A stretch of DNA of 64,000 bases from Onthophagus taurus. Lineage: Eukaryota > Arthropoda > Insecta > Coleoptera > Scarabaeidae. Of this stretch, positions 13,309-48,306 are shown piece after piece. Below the pieces are notes generated by a model. The model did not search any database, was not told where the DNA came from, and saw only the letters and a program-made list of their open reading frames with translations. The stretch is taken from the NCBI RefSeq assembly GCF_036711975.1, contig NC_091973.1, forward strand, positions 248,001 through 312,000. The letters run 5' to 3'. The number at the start of each line of letters is the position of its first letter. Position 1 is the stretch's first letter. A program made the position numbers and the translations under genes.

Positions 13309-13828
13309 TTATGGGAGGATGTTAGCGATCATACGCGTATTATTGCAAAATTCGCAAGCACGTCGTATCGTCAACAGAAACCACTCCGCAGCTTGGCGAG
13401 ATCTGAAGTGGAAATCAAGATCGCAATAGCCATTACGTCTATTGCGTTTCACAATCCTTAAGACGAAATCGACCCCGCGATACATTTCGCGGAGATTGTT
13501 AAGGGTGATTAAATCCCAAACGTGTCTCACTCTAACTATGGTGGTATCGTCATCAGCAGCTCTTTGCGCATGCGCACGATCTGGTTGTCCGTTAGCAGCC
13601 CTGCGACGTTCTCTGCGATTGGCGCGATTGCGATTCCTAATATACAAAAAAAATAGAAAAGGGTTGATGTAATAAATGTTATACGGACCTTCCCGCTTGA
13701 TCAGGAGCTTCATCTGAGCTTGTTGACGATGACCTGTTCGACACAGGACTCAAGCTTCGTCGTCGTTGGGTTCCCGATCCTGATGCAGAATCCCCACGAT
13801 CGTTGTTCCTGTTGTTTATTGGTGCCAT
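13309..13828 (-). CDS. Small Arg-rich protein of unknown function (155 aa)
   Basis: Two exons on the minus strand: 13828-13689 and 13636-13309, with a 52-bp intron, in phase. Residues 1-47 are polar and low-complexity (Ser, Asn, Arg; SLSPVSNRSSSTSS). Residues 48-70 are an Arg-rich block (NRNRANRRERRR), probably a nuclear or nucleic-acid-binding patch. Residues 80-155 look folded (VRHVWDLITL, then MYRGVDFVLRIVKR, DFHFRSRQAAEWFLLTIRRA). I recognise no family. A likely 5' untranslated exon ends with donor GAG|GTAAAA near 13902, and four perfect heat-shock units lie at 13977-13994, about 150 bp upstream of the ATG. The gene may therefore be stress-induced; that is inference. The distribution of Arg residues, not codons, is the oddity. 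Confidence 0.7.
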
Positions 13829-13976
13829 CGTTCAATCGTTACTAATAATAAATAAATTCGATGAAATAATGCAAAAATGTTAAGAAAAAACCAGTTTTTT
13901 TACCTCTTGCAAAACTCAACGTGCGTCAGAGTCAAAAATCAAACTTAAAATGGCCGCTTTGACTGCGCTCAAAATG

Positions 13977-13999
13977 TTCTAGAACTTTCTAGAAGATTT
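13977..13999 (-). promoter_or_regulatory. Canonical heat-shock element (four perfect units)
   Basis: The site reads TTCTAGAACTTTCTAGAAGA: TTC-nn-GAA-nn-TTC-nn-GAA with perfect 5-bp spacing, followed by a near-match fifth unit (TTT). Three or more contiguous nGAAn units in alternating orientation are what HSF trimers bind. It lies upstream of the putative 5' exon of the Arg-rich minus-strand gene, at the distance usual for heat-shock promoters. Confidence 0.75.
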
Positions 14000-14304
14000 C
14001 AAATAACACCGAAGTTTCTTTTTAAATTTATAAGACGACCTCTTTTTTGGGTGTATTACATCACGTTGTGATAATATACACTGATTTTGTAAATTAACTA
14101 ATTCGTTTTAAAAAATTAATCTTCCCAAAAATCATTTGGCGCCATCTAACTTTTATAAACCGAACTAAAAATTTTGGAAAGTTGGGTTAGAATAAAATAG
14201 ATGAGAAATATGTGAAAATTTGAATTAAAAACGGTTTTATTTATTGACCATGAACAAATTTAAATGTTATCATAAACATTTTTAGGCGAAATATAAAGGT
14301 TTAG

Positions 14305-14827
14305 TTACTTTGGACATTGAGTTGGAAGAATACAAGGGCTGTCGTGGCTATTAAGGGTTCTCACATATCCCGGTTCGCATAAGCAGCCTTTAATACACCA
14401 TCTGTCACACTTAGGATCTCGTAAATTCTCGCAAGTTTTTACGCAATCCCATTGACATTCGTTGATGTATCTCTCATACTTTTTGCATTTTGGAATGGGT
14501 ACGGTGTCACACATCTTTAGTGGGACGCACTCCAACATTTCGGGCGTTAATTTAATATAACCAGGCATGCAAAAGCATCCTTCCACACACCGTCCACAAG
14601 ATCCTGATTCCTCGTTAGTTTGGTTACAAACATATGGGATGCAACTGTTACCGCATTTTAGGTAAACTGCGTTTGATCCACATTTACTATCTTGATTAAA
14701 ATTCATTGTAGCTGAGTCTAATTAATTGAATTAATTTAAATCACAAAAAAGATTTCATTAAAAATTACTTACCGCACAGAACAACCAAAATCGTAACGAT
14801 GAGAAGTGAAGTGTAAAATTGGGCCAT
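14305..14827 (-). CDS. Secreted protein with two TIL (trypsin inhibitor-like) domains
   Basis: Two exons, 14827-14773 and 14717-14305, 155 residues. Residues 1-18 form a signal peptide (MAQFYTSLLIVTILVVLC). Two Cys-rich modules follow: about 29-90 (CGSNAVYLKCGNSCIPYVC ... CVEGCFCMPGYI ... CVPLKMC) and about 96-153 (CKKYERYINECQWDCVKTC ... WCIKGCLCEPGYV ... CILPTQC). The GCFCxxGY and GCLCEPGYV words are diagnostic of TIL domains. Such proteins inhibit serine proteases outside the cell or act in immunity. The second module's reactive-site region cannot be judged by eye. A TATA box lies upstream at 14895-14902. Confidence 0.88.
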
Positions 14828-15244: not shown

Positions 15245-16542
15245 ATGGGCTTAAAAGAATTTAACATCACGTTCGACAACCCTTATCGAACATATTACGT
15301 TGGCCAAACAGTAACAGGAAGACTCGAAGTTGTGTTAGATTCGCCGAAGAAAATCAGAGGTATTTTATTGAAATTTAAGGGTGAGGCCAAAGTTAGATGG
15401 ACAGAGCAGGAATCAAGAACGAATCAAGAAGGGAAATCGGAAACCCAATCTGTGTCTATGACCGGAGATGAGGAGTATTTTAAAACGCAATATTATTGTT
15501 TTGGTGGAGCAAACGGTGTGTTTAGTTATCTTAAAAATAGCTCGCTTAATACATTTTGTTTTAGCTGATACAACCGAGTTACCAATCGGAAGCCACATTT
15601 ACCCATTTACTTGTGTTTTACCACCAAATTTACCATCATCGTTTGAAGATGAGTACGGTTATATAAGATATACGATAAAAGCAATTATAGACCGTCCGTG
15701 GAAATTCGATCATGAAACCAAACAAGCATTCACAGTTTTATCTCAATATGATTTAAACTCAAATCCTAAATTAAGCGAACAAGCTAAAATAACCATGGAA
15801 AAATTTATGTGTTGCTGTTGGTGTCAATCTGGTCCGTTATCTTGTGTTGTAACGTTACCAAAAGCCGGTTATGTACCTGGCGAGGCCATACCTATTTTAG
15901 CTGAAGTCGATAATAACTCTAATGTTACGGTATCTAAAATTAAATTTGAGCTACAAAAAGTTATCACGTGTTATTCGCAATTTCCAAGGAGGGATTCCAA
16001 GAAATCAGTGCATGTTGTTGCGGTTTTAGCAATGGGACCGATTAATAATAACAGTTTGCAGCTTTACACTCCTACAATGACTTTACCACCACTACCACCA
16101 TCTAATTTAGTTCATTGCAATATTATTGATTTGGATTATGCTTTAGAAGTAAATATTTTGATATTAACGAAATTCTAGGATTAAAAATTTTTTTTTAGAT
16201 AGTTTTAGATATAGATGGGTGCCACAGCAATTTAAGTAAATCCATACCAATTTCAATAGGCACAATTCCGTTAAAGGTATCTCCATCCGCACCACCATTA
16301 ACCCCACCTCCATCCGAAGGAGGCCCATTGTTGGGGTGGGTCTTAGACGGACAGGGTAAGTGAAAAAATTTACAAAGTATTAACTTCTAATTATTATCTT
16401 TTTAGCACCTACTTTTGGAATGTACAATTACGGAGCAACAAATTTACAAGATCGGGATGATAATCAGCACACGATGTTCGATACGGAACCATTTCATCCA
16501 ATGTATCCAGTTTATAAATTCACGAATGGTCCTCAAAGTTAA
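15245..16542 (+). CDS. Alpha-arrestin (arrestin domain-containing protein), copy 1
   Basis: Four exons: 15245-15515, 15565-16148, 16199-16355, 16406-16542; 382 residues. The N-terminal arrestin fold opens with the family pattern FNITFDNPYRTYYVGQTVTG (from residue 5) and continues with ILLKFKGEAKVRW and LPIGSHIYPFTCVLPPNLPS, EDEYGYIRYTIKA. The C-terminal arrestin fold starts near 190 (LPKAGYVPGEAIPILAEVDN). Alpha-arrestins are adaptors that bring ubiquitin ligases to membrane receptors and help their endocytosis. The C-tail is Pro-rich (PSAPPLTPPPSEGG) but shows no clear PPxY motif for NEDD4 ligases. It leads a cluster of three related genes in the same direction. Confidence 0.93.
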
Positions 16543-45059: not shown

Positions 45060-48000
45060 ATGGCTCGAATGACGCCGATTTTTGCATACCTAACAATCCT
45101 GTTTTGTTTAAACAACCACATCGATGCTCAAAATTATGGAAGTTCCATTGCGCCGTATCTTGTGGAGTGTTACAACCAAACCGACCTTTTCGTTGCTGAC
45201 AGAAGACTTCCTTCAACTATAAACGTCCTTATTGATCTTATTAGAAAAGCTGAGGATGGCAGAACTACCCAGGATGCTAGGCAACTCTCCAGTGAATTAA
45301 TCCATAGGTATTAATTATTATTATTTTTTTTTATCAAAACATTAATTCCAATTCATCCATTTTACAGATTTAGGCAAGATGGAATATTAAGATCAACCGA
45401 TACAGCTGAAGATACAGAGTTTTCTTTACCATTCAGCCCCGTGGGGATACAAGCATCCAAAAATAGAGTACTACAACTCATCCTCATTCCAGGATCGGCT
45501 GTTAATTTTCCAAATGAAACTTTGAATGCACTTGAAAGTGTAAGTTGGGTTAAAAATTACTAATTAATTTAGTTAGGGAGGGTTCGGTTTGTGAAATTAT
45601 TTTAAAGTCCAAATTAAACTCAATATATAGAAATGCAGTAAAACCTCCTTATAATGGATTAATATGACCTGTCTAGTTCTAGATCCAGTCTTAGAACTAG
45701 AAACATTCAGGTTTAGCCATGCGTCTCTCAAGACGGCTAATCCTGAATGTTTCTAGCTCTAGGTCCAGTTATATCCGAAGTCCGTTTTAAAGAGGTTTTA
45801 CTGTGTATATAAATTTATAATATATATAAATTAAAAATAATATATTTTAGTGCTCCCTTCACTTTATTTTATCAAGCACTGTTGACACGACGATTCGTAA
45901 TGATGAATCAAACGTTTGTAATCGATTGGGAAGATATGAAAGAAGAGGAAGAAGTGTTGATGATGATGTTGAAGTTTTTGAGAAGGATCAATTATACAAG
46001 TAATATTTAAAAAAAAATTAAAATATTAAAATAATTAATTTTTAAATTGTAATAGAGCACTTCGTGGAAACATGGAAGAAGCTGCTGAAACACCGGCTGA
46101 GCCAAGTGATGAAACACCCGAAGAAACGCTTGATACGCAACATGAAGAAACCGAAGATGACCCAGTTGAATCCCTTGACGAAAAAACTCGTACGGGTGCT
46201 TTACAATCTTTGAGTGATTGCCCGGTTGAAGGTGGTGTAATTTATACTCGTTGGGGAGCTGTTCAAGCGGGCACTGTAATCGCTGGCATCGCCGCCGGGT
46301 TAGCACAACAAACAATAGAAAACCTCGTCGACAGCAGATTTGCAGCAACTCTAAGTGGCGATTTAGCTAAAGCATTATTGTTTCAAACTGGAAGAACAGG
46401 AGCTGTACGTTCTGTGGGCGCAACCGGAGGATGGAACAGTACCCAAGTACCCAGATGGTATTTTATTAACAGCAATACAAACTTCGAAATGACCGATGCT
46501 GATATTAGAGCTGGAATTGATGGGTTAATTATCGCCCAGAATGTTGTTAATTGGAGAAACAGTTTCCAAACGATCAAAGTTTCCCAAATACTTGATTTAT
46601 ATTATTCTCAACGAGGAGTTTTTAACGAAGAAGTTAGAGCGTGTAACAGATATAATTTATTAGCTACTGTTGCACCAACTGAAACATTAATTGCTCAAAC
46701 CACTGCTTTTACTCCTCAATTAGATCGTTTTGCTGTTTCTCCTGGTTCTATCATTCCAGCTGGTATACCAACATTATCACAAAGAATTGTTAATTTGTTT
46801 AATCAATATGCACGTAAGTTTATTTATTTAAATTTATTAATTAAAATTTAAGCATATATAGGCAACTCAATACATTTATTTTTAATTTATCTTTTTAAGC
46901 AACGATGTCATCATCCGATCTTCAATGCAGTGTTGATACAAAAAGTAGGAATAGAATCGCAACGGAAATCATTATCGTTTTAGATACAGCGTGGACTCAT
47001 AACGTTGCCCAAGCTGCTATTTCTTATATTTTAGATAATCTTGATGTTAACAGATTTGAAAGTAGCTACATGATTATTAACGGTGGTGATGGGGGAGTTA
47101 TTGTTAATTCTAGTACAACGATCTTGGATTACCATCAACGTTTTAATTTGACAGTTCAACAAGCTCGTAAGTAAATTTATTCTTGGAAGTATGAAGGTTA
47201 TTGAACTAAAATTAGAATTAACACTAGGATTATCACTAGAACTAAGATTACACCTAGATCTAGAAATATTCAGGTTTAGCTGTGCGTCTCTTAAAACGAC
47301 TAAACCCGAATGTTTCTAATATTAATTCTAATTTTAGTTCAAATTTATTATTGTAACAAAAAAAAATATATTGGATTAATTTTTTTAGATCAAACTGGTT
47401 TTCAATATAGCAGAATGTACGCTGAAGTAGAAAACATAGTAAGGGAAAGAATGGATAATTTCACTGACGTAGGAGGAAAATCAACAATAGCGGTGTTTAT
47501 GCCTTCTCAAGCTACCGTTTCTGAGGCGGATAGGAATTTTGCTCGGGAGAGACTTGAAATGCAACGCTCCTTATTACCAGATTTACGTATTATGGTACTT
47601 GGCCCTGGTCAAGCTACAGTTTATACCGATTTAACAACCGGAGGCGAAATGGATGTATTTACTTTACAAAATTCCATAGATGGAACAAACATTGTAACGG
47701 CACTTAATCCATTTTTGGATAGAGTGCGCGATATACCCAGAAGGCTTATTAATCCTGCGTGCAGATCTGATTTCTCAGGTTCAGAAGGAGAGACGCATAC
47801 ACACGACGATTTCCTTGAACCACAAACAATTAACTATTACAGAATTTCCCCTAATTACTTTTTCGGAGATGGTGATCGTTCGTTAATCGTAAGAGGACAA
47901 GGATACGGTACTTTTGTTGTTTGCACTTCAAGAACCGATATGTATGTTAGTCAAAATAGCACCGCAGCTGATAGAGACTGTAGGAATATCAATTCTAATG

Positions 48001-48306
48001 AAGAAACGTTTATTATGGATGGCTTTTGTACCGGGGGGTTAATTCTAGATTGCGCACCATTTTACATTTCAGTTCAATCAACGGCGGTTAATACAATTTG
48101 GCGTTGTACAGGTATTTAATTTAAATTTCAATTTAAATTAATTTTTATATAACACAATTTTTCTAATTTTAGATGTAGGCTGTAGATTCCCTGATAATAT
48201 CAAATTTACATTTACATTAGTCAACTTTTCTTGCCGTAGCAGTTCCACAACCATCATGGGAAGCGTAGCTTTAATAGCCGTAATGTTAGCGTTATTGAAA
48301 TGGTAA
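45060..48306 (+). CDS. Secreted, probably GPI-anchored protein of 816 aa, unknown role
   Basis: Seven exons: 45060-45307, 45368-45539, 45851-45999, 46056-46813, 46900-47166, 47389-48111, 48173-48306, all in phase. Signal peptide MARMTPIFAYLTILFCLNNH. An acidic linker (about 195-225: EEAAETPAEPSDETPEETLD) follows RYERRGRSVDDD, a possible furin-like site. From about residue 237 a large extracellular region begins (CPVEGGVIYTRWGAVQAGTV, ALLFQTGRTGAVRSVG). EIIIVLDTAWTHNVAQAAIS (about 465) recalls a von Willebrand A strand but lacks a DxSxS motif. A Cys-rich end (CRSDFSG ... CTSRTDMY ... CTGGLILDCAPFY ... CRFPDN ... CRSSS) leads to a hydrophobic C-terminus (MGSVALIAVMLALLKW) typical of a GPI signal. 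I do not recognise a named family; two introns carry small MITEs. Confidence 0.85.
45636..45803. mobile_element. 168-bp MITE with pogo-like ends and palindromic core
   Basis: Ends CAGTAAAACCTC and GAGGTTTTACTG, then GGTCCAG near the inner right, in an intron of the 816-aa gene. The core is the palindrome family AACATTCAGGTTTAGCC ... GGCTAATCCTGAATGTTT. The immediate flanks are TG on both sides rather than clean TA. No coding capacity. Confidence 0.75.
47201..47342. mobile_element. 142-bp MITE with different ends but the same palindromic core
   Basis: Ends TTGAACTAAAATTAGAATTA and the inverse TAATTCTAATTTTAGTTCAA, perfect over 20 bp. The centre again reads AAATATTCAGGTTTAGC ... AACCCGAATGTTTC, with CTAGAACTAAG-type spacer words. 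It lies in intron 5 of the 816-aa gene. Confidence 0.75.

Follow-up and report, generated by a model that had tools for sequence, protein, structure and literature searches.

A gene for a divergent RRM-like protein downstream of a four-unit heat-shock element in Onthophagus taurus

A 64-kb stretch of the Onthophagus taurus genome, referred to here as the window, contains a minus-strand gene of two exons (13309..13828) whose promoter carries a heat-shock element (HSE) of four contiguous perfect units and whose 155-residue product ends in a domain resembling a divergent RNA recognition motif (RRM). The proximal part of the promoter is conserved in a paralogue of the same genome. Binding of heat-shock factor (HSF), induction, nuclear location and a biochemical role of the product are predicted from these features, and a stress role of the gene is plausible. 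The explanation favoured here, to which about even weight is given, is that the gene encodes an HSF-responsive nuclear RNA-processing or export adaptor combining a non-canonical RRM with an Arg-rich arm. The best-known insect HSF targets are chaperone genes. A divergent RRM gene preceded by a credible HSF element, it appears to be of an ordinary kind, and only its regulatory feature is uncommon.

The heat-shock element

An earlier note on this DNA had described four contiguous perfect nGAAn units about 150 bp before the ATG of a 155-residue protein, accompanied by a near fifth unit. The four units (TTCTAGAAAGTTCTAGAA, 148 bp away) and the protein were recovered, with the gene assigned to the minus strand. 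Near units exist in register on both sides of the element, AAA (for GAA) distally and TTT (for TTC) proximally, and neither of them is perfect. All four units match the stricter AGAAN form and the distal start is TTC, two properties of HSEs described in passages of PMC2871787. By a criterion from the same source, the proximal promoter of an HSF-regulated heat-shock gene has three or more alternating nGAAn/nTTCn units in an unbroken row; the window promoter has four perfect ones, placed relative to the ATG.

The earlier note had also considered such tandem elements rare by chance, which turned out to be true of the window and less so of the genome. TTCNNGAANNTTCNNGAA occurs once in the 64 kb as the sole four-unit element, and dinucleotide shuffles contained a mean of 0.02, with 2/100 having one. 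When the genome was searched (290.8 Mb, 33 contigs), the four-unit pattern was found at 112 places compared with 72 for the reversed control, a mild enrichment of 1.6-fold; the 112 places correspond to about 0.025 per 64 kb or 8e-5 per 200 bp (positions of the 112 sites are listed as far as the first sites of contig C5). The exact form TTCTAGAANNTTCTAGAA, which includes the window site, was found 14 times versus 2 for the reversed control, or about 1e-5 per 200 bp. The weight rests on this exact form and on the place of the element before a gene start; the four-unit run alone is only mildly enriched and not decisive. In 12 regions taken for the 14 strict sites, one of them the window's own, no HSF-target gene was named from open frames inspected by eye, and no support is drawn from these sites.

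Arrays of six to eight perfect units were also observed at C1:4799500-4809000, C3:4439500-4448500 and C3:5362300-5371300, with no chaperone recognised nearby and with transposase-like or reverse-transcriptase-like and Ser-rich repeat-like frames (by eye) around them; they may be repeat-borne HSF sites.

Comparison with chaperone promoters of the same genome

The genome encodes an HSF DNA-binding domain (two exon pieces, C8:2406372-2409384). Four of the seven best Hsp70 matches have a four-unit HSE, which ends 181, 181, 181 and 186 bp before the ATG; these four promoters were chosen for comparison because they bear the element. A further 20 chaperone upstream regions were scanned, comprising 10 Hsp70-family starts, six of seven small heat-shock protein (sHsp) matches, two of 34 DnaJ matches and two Hsp90 matches. 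At least three perfect units in a row were present in 8/20, and four in one, an sHsp region, whereas none of 590 random 1-kb pieces exceeded two. In the 20-region set, distances are counted not from an ATG but from that end of each region which adjoins the domain match, and one Hsp90 region (C6) was scanned over 4.5 kb instead of 1 kb. For the background, 600 overlapping pieces were drawn, all from the window, and 10 were dropped for covering the element. By sequence, the window promoter resembles promoters of the HSF type in its own genome, apart from the lack of a TATAAA between element and ATG.

Contig C1 holds, within 1.3 Mb (18.79, 19.86, 20.017 and 20.022 Mb), four Hsp70 genes with near-equal scores and 653-aa open frames; the promoters read, those of three of these genes, are nearly identical.

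A paralogue that shares half of the element

A close paralogue is located on the same contig, 9.3 Mb off (C8:9575393-9574882), and has 46% protein identity with the window gene. The pair shows dN 0.456 and dS 2.06 (NG86) and differs at 19/29 shared fourfold sites, which suggests silent sites near saturation while the protein stays constrained. A dN/dS of about 0.22 (NG86), together with an intron in the same phase (50 bp in the paralogue, 52 bp in the window gene), makes it well supported that the window gene is a genuine protein-coding gene.

Upstream of the two genes, local alignment of a proximal promoter block gave a score of 64, reached by 0/1000 shuffles (maximum 41) and by 0/1648 other genomic pieces (maximum 44) drawn, with some overlap, from fetched loci. 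The alignment starts at the proximal TTCTAGAA of the window HSE. Of this motif the window gene has two copies, whose starts precede the ATG by 166 and 156 bp. The paralogue has a single one at 148 bp, within 8-18 bp of the same place, which pairs with the proximal copy in the local alignment and with the distal copy in the global alignment. Other stretches common to both promoters within the block are found around GCCATTTTA and GGTAAAAAAA. What is conserved is a promoter with half an HSE, not the full HSE. A repeat-borne promoter was considered and rejected, the 171-bp promoter matching only itself by DNA search (E up to 1), a search that diverged copies, such as the paralogue promoter, escape. 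Conservation of the distal promoter (-500 to -250) is not claimed, its score of 29 being equalled by 30/824 genomic pieces. TTAGATGGCGC is common to window positions 14139-14149 and the paralogue upstream region, in an alignment of no significance (30/824 pieces as good); it resembles an insect CTCF core.

Several observations weigh against control of the window gene by HSF. Judging from the reversed control, many four-unit places in the genome are due to chance, and several strict TTCTAGAANNTTCTAGAA places sit among apparent transposon fragments (by eye). If one mismatch is allowed in the four units, the contrast between chaperone regions (5/20) and background (8/590) becomes weaker. From HSE to ATG the window gene has no TATAAA, and the four Hsp70 promoters carry TATAAAAG there; in the window TATAAAAG is found upstream of the HSE, at 14157-14150, so that transcription may start on either side of the element. 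Introns are atypical of the strongest heat-shock genes, and the window gene has one; heat-induced hymenopteran hsc70-4 genes contain introns, according to passages of PMC4717527. The joint conservation of HSE and gene, proposed as a check in the earlier note, was found only in part among the paralogues within this genome. In the close one a single TTCTAGAA, or two of the four perfect units, is retained, and the locus of a distant family member on C3 has neither TTCTAGAA nor a three-unit run, just a two-unit TTCCAGAA 477 bp upstream. HSF control may therefore be ancestral or not.

These data bear on an alternative in which the RRM gene is real but is not induced by heat: a conserved TTCTAGAA, serving constitutive expression or some other factor, would have been extended by chance into the four-unit HSE. 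The alternative is to be taken seriously, although it is judged somewhat improbable. It agrees with the single TTCTAGAA common to the paralogue, with the shared stretches around GCCATTTTA and GGTAAAAAAA, which may be the working promoter, and with the low enrichment of four-unit places over the reversed control; the genome-wide counts of TTCTAGAANNTTCTAGAA and an HSE-ATG distance resembling that of Hsp70 genes argue against it. According to passages of PMC2871787, with tests on Hsp genes, HSEs of two subunits can be bound by HSF in vitro and are present in Hsp promoters of Drosophila. If this can be carried over from Hsp genes to the window gene, as we infer, the paralogue may be a weak target too, which also speaks against chance extension. 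A different alternative, which we regard as unlikely, is that HSF binds the element in development or the germline and not upon heat shock, the protein being a housekeeping or gonadal RNA factor. The intron, the absence of TATAAA between HSE and ATG and the paralogue-conserved promoter block would fit it, as would the statement in a passage of PMC2871787 that HSF appears to bind genes not previously tied to heat shock.

A divergent RRM-like domain

The earlier note could assign the protein to no family, a claim that did not survive, since a divergent RRM is what the C-terminal part resembles. The profile search and structure prediction suggested there for this part of the protein both led to RRM likeness, with a high profile score and models of moderate confidence, and of the guess at a nuclear or RNA-binding protein the RNA-related part is probably right, through that likeness. 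When compared by hhalign, three domains of the family aligned with three RRMs of the same genome, taken from the C8:2390069 gene and PABP, at 96% (E 4e-9). The close pair alone scored 33.2, and the highest score among 100 column shuffles was 16.7. Template-free single-sequence AlphaFold models displayed a beta-alpha-beta-beta-alpha order with a last strand of at most 2 residues, the best reaching pLDDT 67.6 and 73.4. The top Foldseek match of both models was the RRM of MEC-8 (E 0.046 and 0.058, prob 0.99), followed by RRMs of HuR, ETR-3 and Y14 together with unrelated ferredoxin-like folds. The likeness of residues ~79-155 to a divergent RRM is well supported, by the same-genome profile comparison and these moderate-confidence models.

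This assignment has its own counter-evidence. The other four models per job stay at pLDDT 47-53 and 47-66. No fold match falls below E 0.001, and in VIA-align ACT and PII-like domains reach Z values equal to or higher than those of RRMs, so that the fold alone is not decisive. Pfam RRM_1 gives zero match for either close paralogue, with nothing above the Pfam cut-off. The profile link depends on one RRM (C8:2390069), and against two RRMs of poly(A)-binding protein (PABP) alone the close pair scores 15.9 (2%), no better than shuffles; with the whole exon 2 of the pair, the score against all three RRMs is 30.1 (66%). It would follow from an alternative reading that the domain is another ferredoxin-like fold, ACT or PII-like. 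The profile links to RRMs of the same genome, the first place of MEC-8 in Foldseek, the Ser/Arg-rich context and a weak RRM_1 match of a third family member (E 0.037) make this very improbable.

This third gene was reached by a search with exon 2 of the paralogue (E 0.07). It lies at C3:20112357 and downstream, on the minus strand, and encodes 188 aa with a MAP- start and a long RS-rich N-terminus. Its RRM_1 match (14.3 bits vs a cut-off of 20.7) is only the third Pfam row, the first being an EF-hand model at E 0.0063, below cut-off; among solved structures its first match is a hydrolase (E 0.032), and RRMs of HuD and DAZL come in at E 0.69 to 0.92. A search with the C3 protein reached in turn a C8 frame with a clear RRM (RRM_1 4.1e-10, search E 0.025) that adjoins a Ser-rich frame, and PABP at E 1.1. 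The solved relatives of this C8:2390069 RRM are PABP (2.2e-23, several RRMs), Sex-lethal (4e-9) and ALY/THOC4 chains (8e-7 to 8e-6), and the window RRM aligns with it over its full length at about 20% identity. Although they were reached by weak links, the third and fourth genes likely belong to one family with the close pair. The sole NCBIfam match of the paralogue, PABP-1234 (E 0.0085, 15.3 bits vs a cut-off of 497.1), is a lead to the RRM reading and not a sign of membership.

The Ser-rich single-RRM gene (C8:2390069-2390320) sits about 16 kb from the HSF gene; a scan of its locus returned no three-unit HSE and no TTCTAGAA.

Other assignments were tried and rejected: CCDC106 (PF15794), with 17.6 bits for the window protein vs a cut-off of 30.2 and no match in the paralogue; TNP-like RNase H C-terminal, SRP-alpha N and DUF5452, sub-threshold Pfam matches not common to the paralogue; and a viral origin, 0 of 39 pattern stretches in viral contigs encoding a relative. 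Sequence searches of solved structures gave a best E of 3.5 for the window protein and, for the pair profile, 0.56 (HAUS6), taken as composition.

Gene structure and neighbourhood

The coordinates of the gene and its promoter are given in Table 1. Exon 1 contains a Ser/Arg-rich stretch, RRRSLSPVSNRSSSTSSD (residues 22-39), the linker (residues 47-75) has 10 Arg in 29 residues, and the whole protein is basic, with a net charge of about +13. Because the nearest upstream frame of that strand, which by eye is cysteine-rich and TIL-like, stops at 14305 and does not reach the element, the window gene would be the natural target of the latter. The plus strand has a frame that looks arrestin-like by eye, with its start at 15245 and thus 1.25 kb from the element. 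Two open frames of ~270 aa, neither of which could be placed in a family by eye, are present at 46039-48119 (+).

Table 1. Features of the gene and its promoter (window positions)
Feature	Position	Strand	Remarks
Possible poly(A) signal AATAAA	13195..13200	-	~110 bases past the stop
Exon 2, including stop codon	13309..13636	-	Arg-rich linker, then RRM-like domain
Divergent RRM-like domain	13312..13542	-	residues about 79-155; from models, Foldseek, profile comparison and alignment
Intron	13637..13688	-	52 bp, GT-AG, phase 2; predicted from sequence
Exon 1	13689..13828	-	codons 1-46 and two bases of codon 47
Conserved proximal promoter block	13882..13984	-	82/101 aligned bases identical to close paralogue, 14 gap positions
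Four-unit HSE	13977..13994	-	148 bases between element and ATG

Proposed function and significance

RNP1 and RNP2 of an ordinary RRM carry stacking aromatics in their consensus. In the profile alignment, the window protein has D119 and D121 at RNP1 positions 3 and 5 and R82 at RNP2 position 2; the aromatics are missing and the domain differs from a canonical RNA-binding RRM. Ordinary RRM stacking on RNA is therefore unlikely, and this, together with the Arg-rich linker and the segment IVKRNRRN, identical in the window protein and the close paralogue, favours an adaptor role. Under heat or other proteotoxic stress, HSF trimers would bind the four-unit HSE before the ATG and transcription would rise. 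The protein would then serve as a small nuclear adaptor in RNA processing or export, its Arg-rich arm and basic loop KRNRRN contacting RNA and its RRM face, devoid of the usual stacking aromatics, contacting a protein partner.

A more specific proposal, put forward tentatively and considered rather unlikely, is that a small, perhaps lineage-specific, Ser/Arg-rich family with degenerate RRMs exists in which the window duplicate, having gained or kept a full HSE, turned into a factor of RNA processing or export induced by heat shock, its sister keeping half of the element. If true, this would be a case of regulatory divergence by which the HSF regulon recruits an RNA adaptor. With a small RRM adaptor controlled by a contiguous HSE, there would be a direct link from HSF to the processing or export of RNA during heat shock, and a pair of genes with four and two units would offer a natural comparison of the effect of HSE length on induction.

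Comparison with known systems

In the literature (titles and abstract openings, among the matches listed), no HSE-controlled RRM protein of this kind was found. Aly/REF (ALYREF, THOC4) resembles the window protein in having one RRM with basic flanks, and the Aly/THOC4-matching RRM at C8:2390069 has in common with the window RRM an Arg at RNP2 position 2 and an Asp at RNP1 position 5. However, this relative fits PABP and Sex-lethal better than Aly, and the window RRM is located at the very C-terminus. The window protein matched no solved Aly chain in the sequence search of solved structures, and the UAP56-binding motif was not seen by eye in its translation. SR proteins are defined by an N-terminal RRM followed by a C-terminal RS domain. 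The combination of an RRM with a Ser/Arg-rich region recalls these splicing factors, as does the long RS-rich N-terminus of the distant C3 member, but the window protein has the order reversed, with a Ser/Arg stretch of ~18 residues first and a degenerate RRM last, and lacks the SR-protein architecture. The C-terminal RRM of MEC-8 (6dg0), first for both models in Foldseek, is alike in fold only, at 16% identity over 62 columns and an E that is not significant. As to regulation, the window protein is no chaperone, as the earlier note had held, and its gene differs from Hsp70 and sHsp genes in this respect, in its intron and in having no TATAAA between HSE and ATG; what it has in common with four Hsp70 genes of its own genome is a four-unit HSE within 200 bp of the ATG.
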